IMG/VR virus record: IMGVR_UViG_3300017772_000061
Location: 1 to 33,042 of that record
Source: a virus
DNA: 33,042 nt
Direction: 5' to 3' (one strand)
In this document: positions 13,530 through 18,646 of the stretch, in pieces
Layout of the letters: each line of letters starts with the position of its first letter
Position numbering within the stretch: position 1 is the stretch's first letter
Translations under genes and position numbers: made by a program
Notes under the pieces: model-generated
Database searches by the model: none
What the model saw: the letters and a program-made list of their open reading frames with translations, nothing else
What the model was told of the DNA's origin: nothing

Positions 13530-14879
13530 TTAGTAAAGCCTGATTCCTGTACCACGACCAGCACGAGCGTGCAAAGGATTGAACTCACGCCATACGAGGT
13601 ATCCCAAACTGTCATTCATGTGGTCATACCCGCCCTCTTTGTCTGGGTCGCCTTTTTCCGTATAGCTCTGCAACTCAAGGCACTCAATCGTTCGCTTACA
13701 GCGACTCGCTATTTGAACGCGGACCTCGCGTTTGCCGTTCTCCAGAACAGCTTGCACAGAAGCCACCCGATCACGGACGGGAGGATTTGCCTTTGGCGAT
13801 TGATTGCTAAACCCGTACGATTCGAGGATCTGGATGTCTGTGCGGGAAGCATTAGTAGAACGCGAGCCGCCTGATGCGTCAGGGTAGATGTATACGCGGC
13901 GGTCGGGAAATCGCCGTCGAATTTCTTGACCCAAAGCGTCCGTGTCATGAGCACCGCTGATCTCATCGATCAGCACGAGCTTGTTGCCAAGACGAACACC
14001 AATTACGGCCGACATGTTGCCAATGTTGAAGTCAACGCCGATGCGTAGAGGTTCGGAGCTGACGTCGGGGATGATGCTGGTTACGTGTTTCGATCGATCG
14101 AAACGGTCGTAAACCTGTCCGGTGTTGAGGTTGACGAACTCGCCGTGCAGGTACGCCTGCAACATGCTTGGGTCGTAGTTGGCCTCGAGCCGTTCGATGA
14201 AGTCTTGGGGTAGATGCGGATTATCCACCGTCCGCATTTTAATCAGCTTGCGATCGCTTCGCTGTAGGGCATCCTCTGAGCCGAACGTTTTCCACATCCA
14301 ACGGAAACCTTCAGGGGTTGATGCTGCAGCGAACTGACGCACGTTGCCAGCCCGCAGACGGCCGAGGATTTTTGGAAAGGCTCGTTGGCAGGTTGTTGGA
14401 TTAACAGTGTCGATTTCGTCCGCGAGAACGTACGCCAGGTTCAGACCGATAATCCGCGACCAGTTCTCAAAGCTCCGGCACAGAACTTTTGTGTCGGCCT
14501 GGGGTAAATGAAGGATGTACTCGGGAAGGGGCGAGGCTCGGAACGTATAAGGCACCTCGTACGCCTCGAGAAATTCCTCGAAGTCATTCATCCATATGTC
14601 ACGTATAAGAGGACCGGTGGGTTCCATGACACATCCGGTGAAGCCTTGGTTGGCCGCGGCCATGAATAGGGTTTTGGCGGCTAGCGCTCGCGTTTTGCCC
14701 GCCCCATAGCCAGCGGAAACGCCGATAATTTGCGTCGAGCAATCGTCTACAAAAGCGCGCTGTCCTGGGTGCAGATCCTCCCGCACGCGATTCAACAGCT
14801 CCTGCATGTCGAGGTCGCGGCCATGTTCGCCGGGCCGGTTTAGTACGTAGCCCGCTGGGATGGCGTCGAGGATGGTCAA
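13530..14879 (-). CDS. terL: Terminase large subunit
   Basis: This 449-aa ATPase-nuclease packages DNA. I chose the TTG at 14879, which overlaps the terS stop (TTGA), because longer frames only read through terS; an ATG at 14807 is the fallback. The ATPase domain has Walker A SAGYGAGKT (55-63), Walker B VLADEID (151-157) and a coupling AASTPEGF (about 187). The RNase H-like nuclease domain has GVDFNIG (Asp 283), PDASG (Asp 334) and HMNDSLGY (Asp 423), the three acidic positions expected. All catalytic residues look intact. The nuclease half is like that of other large terminases, but I cannot tell the packaging mode (cos or pac) from sequence alone. Confidence 0.95.
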   Translation of the reverse strand: MTILDAIPAGYVLNRPGEHGRDLDMQELLNRVREDLHPGQRAFVDDCSTQIIGVSAGYGAGKTRALAAKTLFMAAANQGFTGCVMEPTGPLIRDIWMNDFEEFLEAYEVPYTFRASPLPEYILHLPQADTKVLCRSFENWSRIIGLNLAYVLADEIDTVNPTTCQRAFPKILGRLRAGNVRQFAAASTPEGFRWMWKTFGSEDALQRSDRKLIKMRTVDNPHLPQDFIERLEANYDPSMLQAYLHGEFVNLNTGQVYDRFDRSKHVTSIIPDVSSEPLRIGVDFNIGNMSAVIGVRLGNKLVLIDEISGAHDTDALGQEIRRRFPDRRVYIYPDASGGSRSTNASRTDIQILESYGFSNQSPKANPPVRDRVASVQAVLENGKREVRVQIASRCKRTIECLELQSYTEKGDPDKEGGYDHMNDSLGYLVWREFNPLHARAGRGTGIRLY

Positions 14880-15199
14880 TCGAAAATCCTCGCGAGACGT
14901 GCGGCTGAGTTGATGCAGCCCAGTGCAGCGTTGAGGTTGCCCTGCTTGCGCGCCTCCTTTTGCAGCGTTGCGCATTGGCTCAACAGTTCGGCCACCATCG
15001 TTTGCCTATCCATCTCCCAGTCGGCTCTCAGCAGCTCTCGGGCACGGTGGATGTACTTGTCGATTTGCCGGGCGCCGATGCCCCACTCATTTGAACCGTA
15101 TTGCACGCATTCAGATCTGGTTGCGCCATTCGATAACAAACGAGCGATGCGGTTCACCCTCATCTCAACTTTGGCTTTGGTCGTGTTACTTGCCGGCAT
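14876..15199 (-). CDS. terS: Terminase small subunit
   Basis: This 107-aa protein has an N-terminal helix-turn-helix-like region (RVNRIARLLSNGATRSECVQYGSNEWGIGARQIDKYI, read in parts) and a helical C-terminal oligomerisation region (LLSQCATLQKEARKQGNLNAALGCINSAARL). The QIDKYIHRARELL segment is typical of small terminases that bind the packaging initiation site. It overlaps terL by 4 nt and follows the PLP-enzyme gene by 3 nt, so the modification genes and the packaging genes are probably one transcript. The start ATG at 15199 is the only good one. Confidence 0.85.
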   Translation of the reverse strand: MPASNTTKAKVEMRVNRIARLLSNGATRSECVQYGSNEWGIGARQIDKYIHRARELLRADWEMDRQTMVAELLSQCATLQKEARKQGNLNAALGCINSAARLARIFD

Positions 15200-15202
15200 G
15201 AT

Positions 15203-15928
15203 TTACCCCAAAACATTCCAAAACAGAACCGTTCCTTTCGACAGTTTGTGACATAGCTCCCATGCTTTCCGATCGTAGTTACCGCACGTAGGGAAAGGCG
15301 CGTCGTAGGAACAGGACCACGAGAACTGTTTGGGGTACTCGTGCAGCGTGACGTTGGACGGATATGGCTGTTTTGAGTTGCGGCTTGCTAGGCCGACAAC
15401 GACGCCATGAACAGGAGTTGGGTAGAACGCCTCGCCGAGACAGCGGGCCAACATCCCTGACCCAGTTGCTGCCCAAACCTGTTCCACATTCCCAACCATT
15501 GATCGGACGCGGCGCATCTGTTCGATAAAAGGGTTCGAAGCCTCTGGAACATCGAAGCCCAGCGGCAGGAACAAAGCGTCGTGTTCTCGGGCGTAACGTT
15601 TGGCCTTTGCCTGCACGTTTGTCATGTAGCCGTAGGGCACCTGATAAATCGTTGCGCCATTGAGCAGGGCTTTCTTCTGGCGGACGTGCAACTCTTTTCG
15701 TTTGGCGTAAAACAGCGTGACTTTGTTGTTGGTCCGCTGCCCCCATACAGACAGTGCATAGGGAGCCCCGCCGCAGAACGGGCCGCCGAACACAACCTCT
15801 TTGCTGTCCTGCACGAGATAGGGCAGGAACCGCATCTTTGATCCGCCAGGCACCTGGTCATCTCGGACGATCAGAAAACGATCGTGGCGATCGATGATTG
15901 GCGTGGGCTGCCACCAACGGTCAGGCAT
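15203..15928 (-). CDS. PLP-dependent fold-type-II-like enzyme, DNA-modification candidate
   Basis: This 241-aa protein resembles a shortened ACC-deaminase/D-cysteine-desulfhydrase-type enzyme. The candidate Schiff-base lysine is Lys31 in VPGGSKMRF, matching the GGNK-x-RK motif of that family. The phosphate-cup loop is AATGSGML (153-160). The C-terminus GTVLFWNVLG matches the LFxHTGG end that closes the active site. It is about 100 residues shorter than ACC deaminases, so a subdomain is reduced. I infer it supplies or rearranges an amino-acid-derived substrate. It overlaps the GNAT-oxygenase gene by 8 nt and precedes terS by 3 nt. Its neighbours point to nucleic-acid modification rather than host metabolism. 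It might be inactive, though both PLP motifs are kept. Confidence 0.72.
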   Translation of the reverse strand: MPDRWWQPTPIIDRHDRFLIVRDDQVPGGSKMRFLPYLVQDSKEVVFGGPFCGGAPYALSVWGQRTNNKVTLFYAKRKELHVRQKKALLNGATIYQVPYGYMTNVQAKAKRYAREHDALFLPLGFDVPEASNPFIEQMRRVRSMVGNVEQVWAATGSGMLARCLGEAFYPTPVHGVVVGLASRNSKQPYPSNVTLHEYPKQFSWSCSYDAPFPTCGNYDRKAWELCHKLSKGTVLFWNVLG

Positions 15929-17081
15929 CGATCAACCTCCTGGTTTGAGCGTTGCAGGCGACATCGACAACAAGGTGAATCCGATCGCAGTCGCTGGTGT
16001 TTTTGACCGCGTGAGGTTTTCGGATGTCGAGGTAAAACAATGCGCCGGCTGGGAAATGCAAACGAGTGCGATCACCTGACAACTCCCAGCTTGAAAACTC
16101 ACAGCCTTTCGCTGTTCGCAAGGGGATGTGCAGGCGGGCGATCCTGCCGTCTGCGGTGCCCGCATCTCGATCTGTGATGTCGGCATGACGAGTTAGCTCG
16201 CCATTCGATGCACGTAGGCGCATTAGCCGAACCCGCTCGAGTTTGCCTGGGATGGATTTAGCCAGGCGCCAAATCGTAGGTAGTGCCATTGCAGCGATGG
16301 TCGGAGCGCAGGCAGCCTTAAGCCGCTCAGGATTGTCCTGTTTCCAGCCTTTGCTCATCTCTCCCGGTTTGATGATGAACCCAGGGTCAGAGGGATCGAA
16401 ACCCTGTAGGGCGATAGCTGTCCAGCTTTTGCGTTTGTTGTACGAGCTGTAGTGCTGCTCCCATGCCGGGTTGAACGCAGAGATTTCTTCGAGGCACGCC
16501 TGAATCTCGCCAGGCATCGCCCCGCATCCCAGGAGTTTTAGTGCCGGAATGTCTGAGGAGTAAAGGCCACCCTGAACGCGAGCCGTTGGGTTGGCTACCC
16601 CATGGATGTAGAGCGTTTTGATGTCGGACGATGCAGTGACCTTGGTTGCCACTGATTTGAAGCCGAGGCTGATCGCGACATCTCTGATCTGTCGGTTTTC
16701 CTCGTGCAGCTCAATCCAGACGGGCCGTGGGCCGGCTTTGTCCATCAGTTTGGTGACGAGCCTGCTGAGATCTGCAGGGTTGCCAGCAAGGGCGCGGATC
16801 TGCAGATCACCTTTGTGGATGCTGATCGGCCGCTGAGCGAAGTCGCTCTGAGAGCTGGCAACCTTGGCGACGCGGAACATCGCTACAGCTGCAATCTCGT
16901 TGGTGTCAGGTGAACGAGTCCAGGCCAACTGACCCTCCTTCATCGCGGTAGCGATGTCGCGTTCTTTTGGCAGGCCGAACGCTCCGTAGCAGTGCGGCTT
17001 GAAATCGCGAGCAAAAACTACGGCGAGCTGTTTTAGGAACGCGAGGTCGTAACCAAGCGCCCAAACCGGTGCATCGCTCAA
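15921..17081 (-). CDS. GNAT acyltransferase fused to 2OG/Fe(II) hydroxylase (Asp/Asn hydroxylase-like)
   Basis: This 386-aa two-domain protein. Residues about 1-160 look like a GNAT fold: IAAVAMFRVAKV strand, a KGDLQIRALAG strand, then PVWIELHEENRQIRDVAISLGF, the usual C-terminal GNAT pattern. Residues about 175-380 resemble the aspartyl/asparaginyl beta-hydroxylase cupin family. The iron ligands are His299-x-Asp301 (TRHADI) and His357 (KPHAVKN), with 2-oxoglutarate-binding Arg316 or Arg367 (IARLHIPL, DRIHLVVDV). The intact triad suggests activity. It starts 4 nt inside the ParB-methyltransferase stop, so the two are coupled. I infer acyl transfer and hydroxylation in a base-modification pathway. 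The GNAT half is the less certain assignment; a Mom-like role is conceivable. Confidence 0.75.
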   Translation of the reverse strand: MSDAPVWALGYDLAFLKQLAVVFARDFKPHCYGAFGLPKERDIATAMKEGQLAWTRSPDTNEIAAVAMFRVAKVASSQSDFAQRPISIHKGDLQIRALAGNPADLSRLVTKLMDKAGPRPVWIELHEENRQIRDVAISLGFKSVATKVTASSDIKTLYIHGVANPTARVQGGLYSSDIPALKLLGCGAMPGEIQACLEEISAFNPAWEQHYSSYNKRKSWTAIALQGFDPSDPGFIIKPGEMSKGWKQDNPERLKAACAPTIAAMALPTIWRLAKSIPGKLERVRLMRLRASNGELTRHADITDRDAGTADGRIARLHIPLRTAKGCEFSSWELSGDRTRLHFPAGALFYLDIRKPHAVKNTSDCDRIHLVVDVACNAQTRRLIDA

Positions 17082-18646
17082 AGCTCACCTCCGATGGAAT
17101 CAGCGGTCAGTTTCTCGCCGTACTCAGTGCTCTCAGCTACAGGGCCGTGCTCTGCGGGCTGCTCCTCGACTTCTGCGAAATCGCATTCGCCGCAAGCGGC
17201 CACGGCTTTGCGGGCATCGCCTTTGAGGAACACGAGAACGTTCTGGTGGGTTTTGCCCAGCTTGCGGGTGCTGGCAAACGTGCGGCCGGCCCTGATCGGC
17301 AGGGTGCCGACGGGAGTGATGAGGATCGCCTCGTTGTAGTAGCTGAGCCCTGCATCGGTGAACGCTTTGATGGTGTCGCCGACGAAGTTGTAATAGTTAC
17401 CCTTTTTGTCGCGAACGTCGCCAACGATGAAACAGGCGAAGGCGTTGTCTTTCAGGAGGCTGCAGGATTTAGCGATGATTTCCCGGTAGCTCTGAACGAA
17501 CTCGTCATAGGGGAGGGTGGACAAATCCTTTGGATCGTCGCTGTAAACCTCGAGATCTGCGTAGGGAGGACAGGAGAAAATCATGTCGGCCTGCAGGCCC
17601 TCGCAAACCCGGTCGATGTTGCGGGAGTCGCTGCAGTACCAAATCGGCGGGTTGTCTGGGGTGATCTCTGCGCCCTGGGCGCGGTTGGCCTCGACCTGTT
17701 CAGCCCGAAGATCGCAGCCGATGTACTGCCGACCTGACTTCAGGGCAACGATGCCGCGGACTGATCCGCCAGCGAACGGATCGAGGATGACGCCATCTTG
17801 AGGAGAGAACCAGCGGTAGGCCAGCTCAGCTAGGACAGGATCGAAAATCGAGGTGCCTGCACCGATCTGAGAGCCAGAGTCAAGGAACTCGGCGACGATT
17901 TGCTCGTCGCTCATGCCTGCGTTTTTCTTTTGGTAGTAGCCGGGAATTTTGGCGTGGATGCTGCCGTTACCTGCGCCGCCTCCAGCCTGCAGGGCCTCCT
18001 TTAGCTGGCGCAGCTGTTCATCAGGCTGAAGCACTGTCTCGGACATGCCGAGGAGATTGCCCTCGCGACCGACCTCTGACTGGATGCCGAGATCCAGCCA
18101 CTGTCGTTTGCGCTCCTGCCACCAACCCTCACGAGCGTTGAGGATTGAGAACGGAGCAATGCCGAAACGATCTGCAAGCTTTGCGCCGGGCTGCGCTGTT
18201 TCTGCCTCAATCGAATCGTCAATAGCCTCATCAAACGCCGCGAGATCCTCCGCCTCTGCGAGGCCGGTTAGATCTGCATCGGAGAACCAAGGGCTGATGT
18301 CATGCTCATCAGAGAGCCGGTTCAACATCTCCTGATCCCAGGTAGAAAGATCAGACGTGCGGTTATCAGCGAGGGCAAGGCCGACCTTTTGCTCCTCGGA
18401 TAGGCCAGTGCGGCGCACCGCGATGATTTCGTCGCCCTCGGTCTCGATGACTCGAATGTTGCTGATGCCTGCAGCCTTAGCGCCCTCGACAGTGCCGTTG
18501 CCGGCAAGGATGCGATTTTCTTCGTCGATGACGATGGAGCGAGCGGCGCCGTAGCGCTGTAGGGACTCTTTGATTAGTTCAGATGATCGATCTGTGCGCT
18601 TTCGTGCATTTTTATGGTCAGACTTCAGGCTGTTGATTGAATCCAC
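17078..18646 (-). CDS. ParB-like domain fused to N4/N6-type DNA methyltransferase
   Basis: This 522-aa fusion. Residues about 5-110 are a ParB-N-like domain (SELIKESLQRYGAARSIVI, ILAGNGTVEGAKAAG). It has AGNGT instead of the ParB GERR motif, so it probably binds DNA rather than acting as a nuclease or CTPase. Residues about 160-195 are a Trp-rich linker (PFSILNAREGWWQERKRQW). The methyltransferase part has motif I DPFAGGS (289-295), an acidic CDL (311-313) and motif IV CPPY (359-362), where Asp, Asn or Ser is usual before PPY. ParB-MTase fusions are known in phages. The motif deviations leave open N6-A or N4-C methylation or another SAM-type chemistry. It is the first gene of the modification unit. 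Confidence 0.85.
   Translation of the reverse strand: MDSINSLKSDHKNARKRTDRSSELIKESLQRYGAARSIVIDEENRILAGNGTVEGAKAAGISNIRVIETEGDEIIAVRRTGLSEEQKVGLALADNRTSDLSTWDQEMLNRLSDEHDISPWFSDADLTGLAEAEDLAAFDEAIDDSIEAETAQPGAKLADRFGIAPFSILNAREGWWQERKRQWLDLGIQSEVGREGNLLGMSETVLQPDEQLRQLKEALQAGGGAGNGSIHAKIPGYYQKKNAGMSDEQIVAEFLDSGSQIGAGTSIFDPVLAELAYRWFSPQDGVILDPFAGGSVRGIVALKSGRQYIGCDLRAEQVEANRAQGAEITPDNPPIWYCSDSRNIDRVCEGLQADMIFSCPPYADLEVYSDDPKDLSTLPYDEFVQSYREIIAKSCSLLKDNAFACFIVGDVRDKKGNYYNFVGDTIKAFTDAGLSYYNEAILITPVGTLPIRAGRTFASTRKLGKTHQNVLVFLKGDARKAVAACGECDFAEVEEQPAEHGPVAESTEYGEKLTADSIGGEL

Follow-up and report, generated by a model that had tools for sequence, protein, structure and literature searches.

Phage DNA hypermodification with amino-acid tailoring is already known, and so is the use of modified S-adenosylmethionine (SAM) donors, the latter from the CmoX system. 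Thymidine hypermodification, as in phages M6, ViI and Tonitrus, draws on a TET/JBP enzyme or 5-hydroxymethyldeoxyuridine (hmdU), an amino acid:DNA transferase (ADDT), a pyridoxal-phosphate decarboxylase and an acetyltransferase; according to Lee et al., amino-acid-derived groups on DNA bases are reportedly tailored in place. Mu Mom, a protein of GNAT fold, makes N6-carbamoylmethyladenine. Tonitrus has ParB, TET-like and aGPT-Pplase2 genes, similar to the ParB-TET-ADDT set (PMC11955845). In the CmoA-CmoX-CmoY carboxymethylcytosine system of phage S-B43, a DNA methyltransferase (MTase) relative takes a modified SAM from a partner enzyme to install a handle, and ParB is often nearby (PMC12783734). 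Here, we analyze a 33,042-nt stretch of viral DNA (positions 1 to 33,042 of IMG/VR record IMGVR_UViG_3300017772_000061; hereafter the window) and three of its minus-strand genes, named MT for the ParB-MTase, OXY for the GNAT-like protein with an Fe(II)/2-oxoglutarate (2OG) oxygenase domain, and PLP for the fold-type-II pyridoxal-phosphate protein. These three genes almost certainly form a phage DNA base-modification cassette, which quite probably places an amino-acid-type group on bases.

The locus resembles thymidine hypermodification in its predicted amino-acid-type base group, in the presence of ParB and in having an OXY homologue that follows ADDT in Mycobacterium phage LilMcDreamy. It differs in that no ADDT (PF18724), TET/JBP, kinase or hmdU gene was seen among the window open reading frames (ORFs) scanned, in a record that may be a fragment, and in that attachment is apparently carried out by a DNA MTase relative. 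With the CmoX system it shares a DNA MTase relative and ParB, and would share a modified SAM supplied by a partner enzyme and a handle that is built on. However, CmoX is a C5-cytosine MTase that uses carboxy-SAM and is followed by a ligase, whereas the window has an N6/N4-type MTase, no CmoA seen, and PLP and 2OG tailoring. The locus and Mu Mom have in common a GNAT fold and phage DNA modification, but the likeness that the initial annotation drew between them failed in profile comparison, which found no sequence relation between Mom and OXY (probability 0.6%), so a Mom-like origin of the OXY GNAT domain was rejected.

The three genes are coupled and conserved together

MT (positions 17078–18646; 522 amino acids, GTG start) joins a ParB-like N-terminal domain to a DNA MTase of the N6/N4 amino-MTase superfamily. 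OXY (15921–17081; 386 amino acids, TTG start) carries a GNAT-like domain and an Fe(II)/2OG oxygenase domain, and PLP (15203–15928; 241 amino acids, ATG start) is a compact fold-type-II protein with the fold of 1-aminocyclopropane-1-carboxylate (ACC) deaminase and D-cysteine desulfhydrase. The initial annotation had described three coupled minus-strand genes here, and the ORFs confirm it exactly: MT and OXY overlap by 4 nt, OXY and PLP by 8 nt, and 3 nt separate PLP from the next gene.

Scans of viral sequences turned up 32 close PLP loci and 78 OXY loci, together with 80 PLP relatives kept out of 396 and 80 relatives of SAM decarboxylase (SAMDC) kept out of 168. Co-occurrence was counted over dereplicated, usable loci, a neighbor lying within 3 kb as stated for PLP and MT. 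MT neighbored PLP in 47 of 53 viral loci, and 4 more had OXY only. Across 58 OXY loci, the neighbors were MT with PLP (24), PLP (4), MT (5), ADDT with or without TET (19) or none of these (6). This co-occurrence rejects chance neighbors, and the MT-PLP and MT-OXY-PLP sets, whose co-occurrence the initial annotation had proposed to check, are conserved across viral loci. The coupling extends to fusion. The MTase of Erythrobacter phages ZS04 and R6L contains the PLP domain, placed after motif II and before motif IV, and that of Pseudanabaena phage Pam4 carries an inserted PLP domain (of AlanGrant type, by eye; see below) at the corresponding site. Conserved neighborhoods, PLP inside the MTase and OXY in ParB-TET/JBP-ADDT cassettes all bear out the view of the three genes as one co-operating DNA-modification cassette.

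The terminases found beside the cassette form several unrelated clusters, which indicates that the cassette moves between phages. The PLP-partnered part of the MT tree shows repeated gain or loss of OXY, with 15 label changes. MT with OXY and without PLP is also seen in whole records of 32–86 kb, suggesting that MT by itself makes the substrate of OXY.

The genes were not seen to travel independently through unrelated metabolic settings. The bacterial PLP relatives come mostly from alphaproteobacterial contigs and adjoin MT in most loci; where MT is missing, the PLP matches are mostly partial or weak. A pattern scan of the bacterial genome collection confirmed no OXY relative. A reading of PLP and OXY as metabolic genes was rejected on these grounds. 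The bacterial MT-PLP pairs (loci L249–L284) are from Rhodobacter, Paracoccus, Puniceibacterium, Sinorhizobium, Acidovorax sp. Leaf78 and other contigs, some of them cultured strains, and are probably prophages.

OXY is shared with ADDT cassettes

OXY matches Asp_Arg_Hydrox (PF05118) above the cutoff (6.8e-8), and its AlphaFold2 (AF2) model has a pLDDT of 96. The oxygenase domain (residues 179–386; 15924–16547, minus strand) contains the HxD...H triad noted initially (H299, D301, H357) and, in addition, R367, the 2OG-binding arginine; these residues are invariant or almost so in 55 alignment rows. Triad, arginine and double-stranded beta helix, the features of the Fe(II)/2OG amino-acid hydroxylase group, are all present. 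The closest solved structure to the modeled domain is L-proline cis-4-hydroxylase (4p7w; Z 16.6–16.7 over 178 residues), tied with a hydroxylase from a nucleoside-antibiotic pathway and followed by AspH, and a profile search of PDB sequences agrees with the structure comparison (4p7w at 1.1e-8). OXY is likely to be a side-chain hydroxylase.

The N-terminal domain (residues 12–164; 16590–17048, minus strand) has a GNAT-type fold in the AF2 model (2pc1; Z 13.6 over 143 residues). The initial annotation had counted on a GNAT activity, but acyl transfer by this domain finds no support: the acetyl-CoA loop (R/Q-x-x-G-x-G/A) was seen in none of the 55 rows, and the corresponding segment is shortened in ADDT-associated members. 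An intact acetyltransferase was therefore rejected, and the sequence makes an active one quite improbable.

The second context of OXY is informative. In LilMcDreamy, the genes for ParB, a TET/JBP-like oxygenase, ADDT (PF18724, 2.7e-12), an OXY homologue and the small terminase subunit stand in a row, and this order recurs in further viral loci. The oxygenase, gp2 (locus L038, 855–1787), is annotated as a queuine tRNA-ribosyltransferase; its TET/JBP-type match is below the cutoff (E 0.002), with HxD..H visible. As ADDT attaches amino acids to DNA bases, and as an OXY homologue stands in ADDT cassettes, the substrate of OXY is probably an amino acid carried by a base. If OXY works with ADDT-made amino-acid bases, then MT, with or without PLP, should produce such a base. 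Both the ADDT partner and the likeness to cis-proline hydroxylase support the amino-acid-derived group that had been proposed initially.

The same context bears on whether the cassette might be a defense or counter-defense system that leaves phage DNA unmodified. ParB-MTase fusions do occur in other conflict settings (PMC5512222), but OXY also occurs in TET/JBP-ADDT cassettes and the cassette precedes the terminase genes in many phages. We regard this explanation as very unlikely.

Several OXY loci showed further features. At locus L023 (1109–2983), the OXY gene is split by an apparent intein near the junction of the GNAT-like and oxygenase domains (Intein_splicing 4e-4, below cutoff). An OXY relative in a 196-kb virus record adjoins a QueC-like gene (L102, 5995–7928), a hint of a connection with 7-deazaguanine modification. 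At L068 (7143–8605), where MT and OXY stand without PLP, a C5-cytosine MTase-like gene (PF00145) comes next and then, by eye, a PAPS-reductase-like gene. At two other loci (L090, 2711–6379; L100, 764–4186), OXY relatives have, by eye, a peptide-deformylase-like gene on one side and, on the other, a small GNAT-like gene, after which comes a different MTase-like gene.

MT motif I changes with the partner gene

MT matches N6_N4_Mtase (PF01555) above the cutoff (2e-12), phrog_498 (4e-109) and ParB-like phrogs, as expected for the ParB-DNA MTase fusion first described. Motif I (residues 289–298, DPFAGGSVRG; 17753–17782, minus strand) comes before motif IV (residues 358–362, SCPPY; 17561–17575, minus strand). 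Although homologous to the N6/N4 superfamily, MT departs from its signatures (DPFxGxG; (D/N/S)PP(Y/F)): in 128 of the 129 family members, motif IV reads CPPY, a Cys standing where D, N or S is usual.

In a sister MT clade, the slot of PLP is taken by a SpeD-type SAMDC gene, directly downstream of MT in 31 of 36 SAMDC loci (drawn from L158, L161 and L166–L245; for example L158, 3977–5618). The SAMDCs of Croceibacter phage P2559S and of ZRG1 match AdoMet_dc, and that of P2559S is active: it rescues spermidine formation in a speD mutant of E. coli and was read as serving spermidine synthesis (PMC9992855). Unlike phage SAM decarboxylases of spermidine synthesis, the SAMDC here adjoins MT, which suggests that decarboxylated SAM is used for DNA aminopropylation rather than for making spermidine. 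Motif I differs between the clades: it is GD[ST]VFG in 39 SAMDC-clade MTs, and GGSVRG or near variants that keep the Arg in PLP-, OXY- and solo-type MTs. In window numbering, G294 becomes D in 100% and R297 becomes F in 97% of the SAMDC-clade proteins (n = 39). R297 may bind the carboxylate of SAM, a group missing from decarboxylated SAM, and a change of motif I would be expected if the donor in the SAMDC clade has lost that group. If the SAMDC clade transfers aminopropyl, homologues that use intact SAM would transfer aminocarboxypropyl. We consider that MT has an even chance of being such a transferase of the 3-amino-3-carboxypropyl (acp) arm of SAM. Contrary to the initial view that the MTase only selects the base, the partner gene and the altered motif I of the SAMDC clade suggest that MT transfers a SAM-derived group. 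SAMDC-partnered MTs are a single lineage in the MT tree (SH 99), so a convergent origin of the switch is unsupported.

A simpler account is that MT is an ordinary N6-adenine or N4-cytosine MTase, and that PLP and OXY serve an unlinked DNA modification or free metabolites. MT does fall within the N6/N4 superfamily, and solo MTs occur in Listeria, Enterococcus and other phages. Yet MT and PLP are near-obligate partners and even share a chain, a Cys replaces D/N/S in motif IV, and one clade is partnered by an active SAM decarboxylase; thus, we judge this account unlikely.

Immediately upstream of MT-SAMDC in P2559S lies an ASCH-domain gene (L158, 3166–3945; PF04266, 5.5e-7), a possible reader of the modified base.

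PLP retains the hallmarks of a fold-type-II enzyme

The shortened fold-type-II enzyme of the initial annotation stood up to analysis, with GGSK (K31) and GSG (156–158) retained and the fold backed by AF2. The model (pLDDT 92) resembles ACC deaminase and D-cysteine desulfhydrase over the whole chain (Z 22.6 to 1j0a, 241 residues). K31 (15836–15838), the predicted Schiff-base lysine, is invariant in the PLP alignment, as are S157 and G158 of the predicted phosphate-binding loop (residues 156–158; 15455–15463); residues 218–223 (YDRKAW; 15260–15277) form a C-terminal family signature, all on the minus strand. Lysine, glycine loop and overall fold-type-II architecture are therefore present. PLP matches phrog_7093 (1e-28) and falls below the cutoff for PALP (2.1e-4; 21.2 bits against 35 needed), and the NCBIfam search, including ACC deaminase, gave no match; the assignment to the ACC-deaminase/D-cysteine-desulfhydrase group is thus by modeled fold, short of curated family cutoffs.

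PLP might itself attach the amino acid, with MT only selecting or methylating the base and OXY hydroxylating the adduct. Serine, O-acetylserine or SAM would give rise to an aminoacrylate or vinylglycine intermediate, to which the MT-flipped base would add, a reaction for which plant uracilyl-alanine synthases offer a precedent. PLP is almost always with MT, even inserted in it, and cysteine-synthase-type enzymes are also among its relatives, but its closest folds are ACC deaminase and D-cysteine desulfhydrase, MT-OXY pairs exist without PLP, and the SAMDC in its slot points to a SAM-derived group. Attachment by PLP therefore appears improbable. We give slightly less than an even chance to PLP acting after transfer, on the DNA-borne amino acid.

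A second PLP subfamily (AlanGrant type) is related to the window protein by profile comparison (E 1.5e-5). In phages AlanGrant and Vincenzo, MT is followed by this PLP and then by the terminase genes, and a scan of viral contigs for the type returned one near-identical record only. A fold-II PLP protein more weakly related to that of the window is also encoded by Ackermannviridae such as ViI-like phages. Genomes of ViI-like phages contain amine-bearing thymidine (PMC11721090).

A model of arm transfer and tailoring

Our model suggests that the ParB-MTase would flip the base out and transfer the acp arm of SAM instead of the methyl; in the SAMDC sister clade, aminopropyl would be transferred from decarboxylated SAM. 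PLP, lying against the MTase or inserted in it, would then decarboxylate, epimerize or eliminate at the alpha carbon of the DNA-borne amino acid, and OXY would hydroxylate the side chain. The degenerate GNAT-like domain of OXY may be a binding module, or may have lost its CoA chemistry. Bases decorated in this way would keep host nucleases from acting ahead of packaging. Taken as a whole, this sequence of arm transfer, PLP tailoring and hydroxylation is about as likely to be right as wrong.

Several points weigh against it. The PLP-partnered MTs may transfer a plain methyl, and the PLP-less records may be incomplete fragments. The arm-transfer chemistry is predicted from sequence, context and fold, and the contact between R297 and the carboxylate from sequence reasoning. 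The motif I switch counts as one evolutionary event because the SAMDC-partnered MTs form one clade. The substrates of PLP and OXY are guesses based on fold and context, and function cannot be read off a fold.

Iyer et al. 2013 are said to have predicted systems that use modified SAM derivatives, and part of the arm-transfer idea may already be theirs. In the literature searched, which did not include that paper or Lee et al. 2021/22, the MT-OXY-PLP combination, the insertion of PLP in the MTase, the link between OXY and ADDT and the motif switch with SAMDC are undescribed, and searches for DNA modified with aminocarboxypropyl or aminopropyl groups gave no relevant result. It is conceivable, at slightly less than an even chance, that a large phage "methyltransferase" family moves an aminocarboxypropyl or aminopropyl arm onto DNA, with PLP and 2OG tailoring, and comprises the first natural DNA transferases for aminocarboxypropyl and aminopropyl groups. 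If so, the SAM side arm would be a new route for placing amino-acid-like groups on DNA, the SAM decarboxylase genes overlapping MTase genes in many phages would be accounted for, and new enzymes for DNA labeling would become available. Partner exchange at one locus would show how phages could switch base modifications against host restriction. Cultured phages for testing include Vincenzo/AlanGrant, LilMcDreamy, P2559S, R6L, ZS04, Pam4, Mae-JY30 and ZRG1.

Surroundings of the cassette in the window

No sugar, nucleotide or amino-acid pathway gene lies nearby, as was first noted and as holds for the ORFs scanned in the 33-kb record; a SAM decarboxylase was also looked for in this record, and none was found. 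The next gene (14876–15199, minus strand), in the flank outside the cassette, is by position a probable small terminase subunit: the earlier terS call rests on its place before TerL, and it matches phrog_34910, a family of unknown function. Elsewhere in the record, ORF scans show siphovirus-type genes for head and tail, along with an endolysin and genes for recombination.

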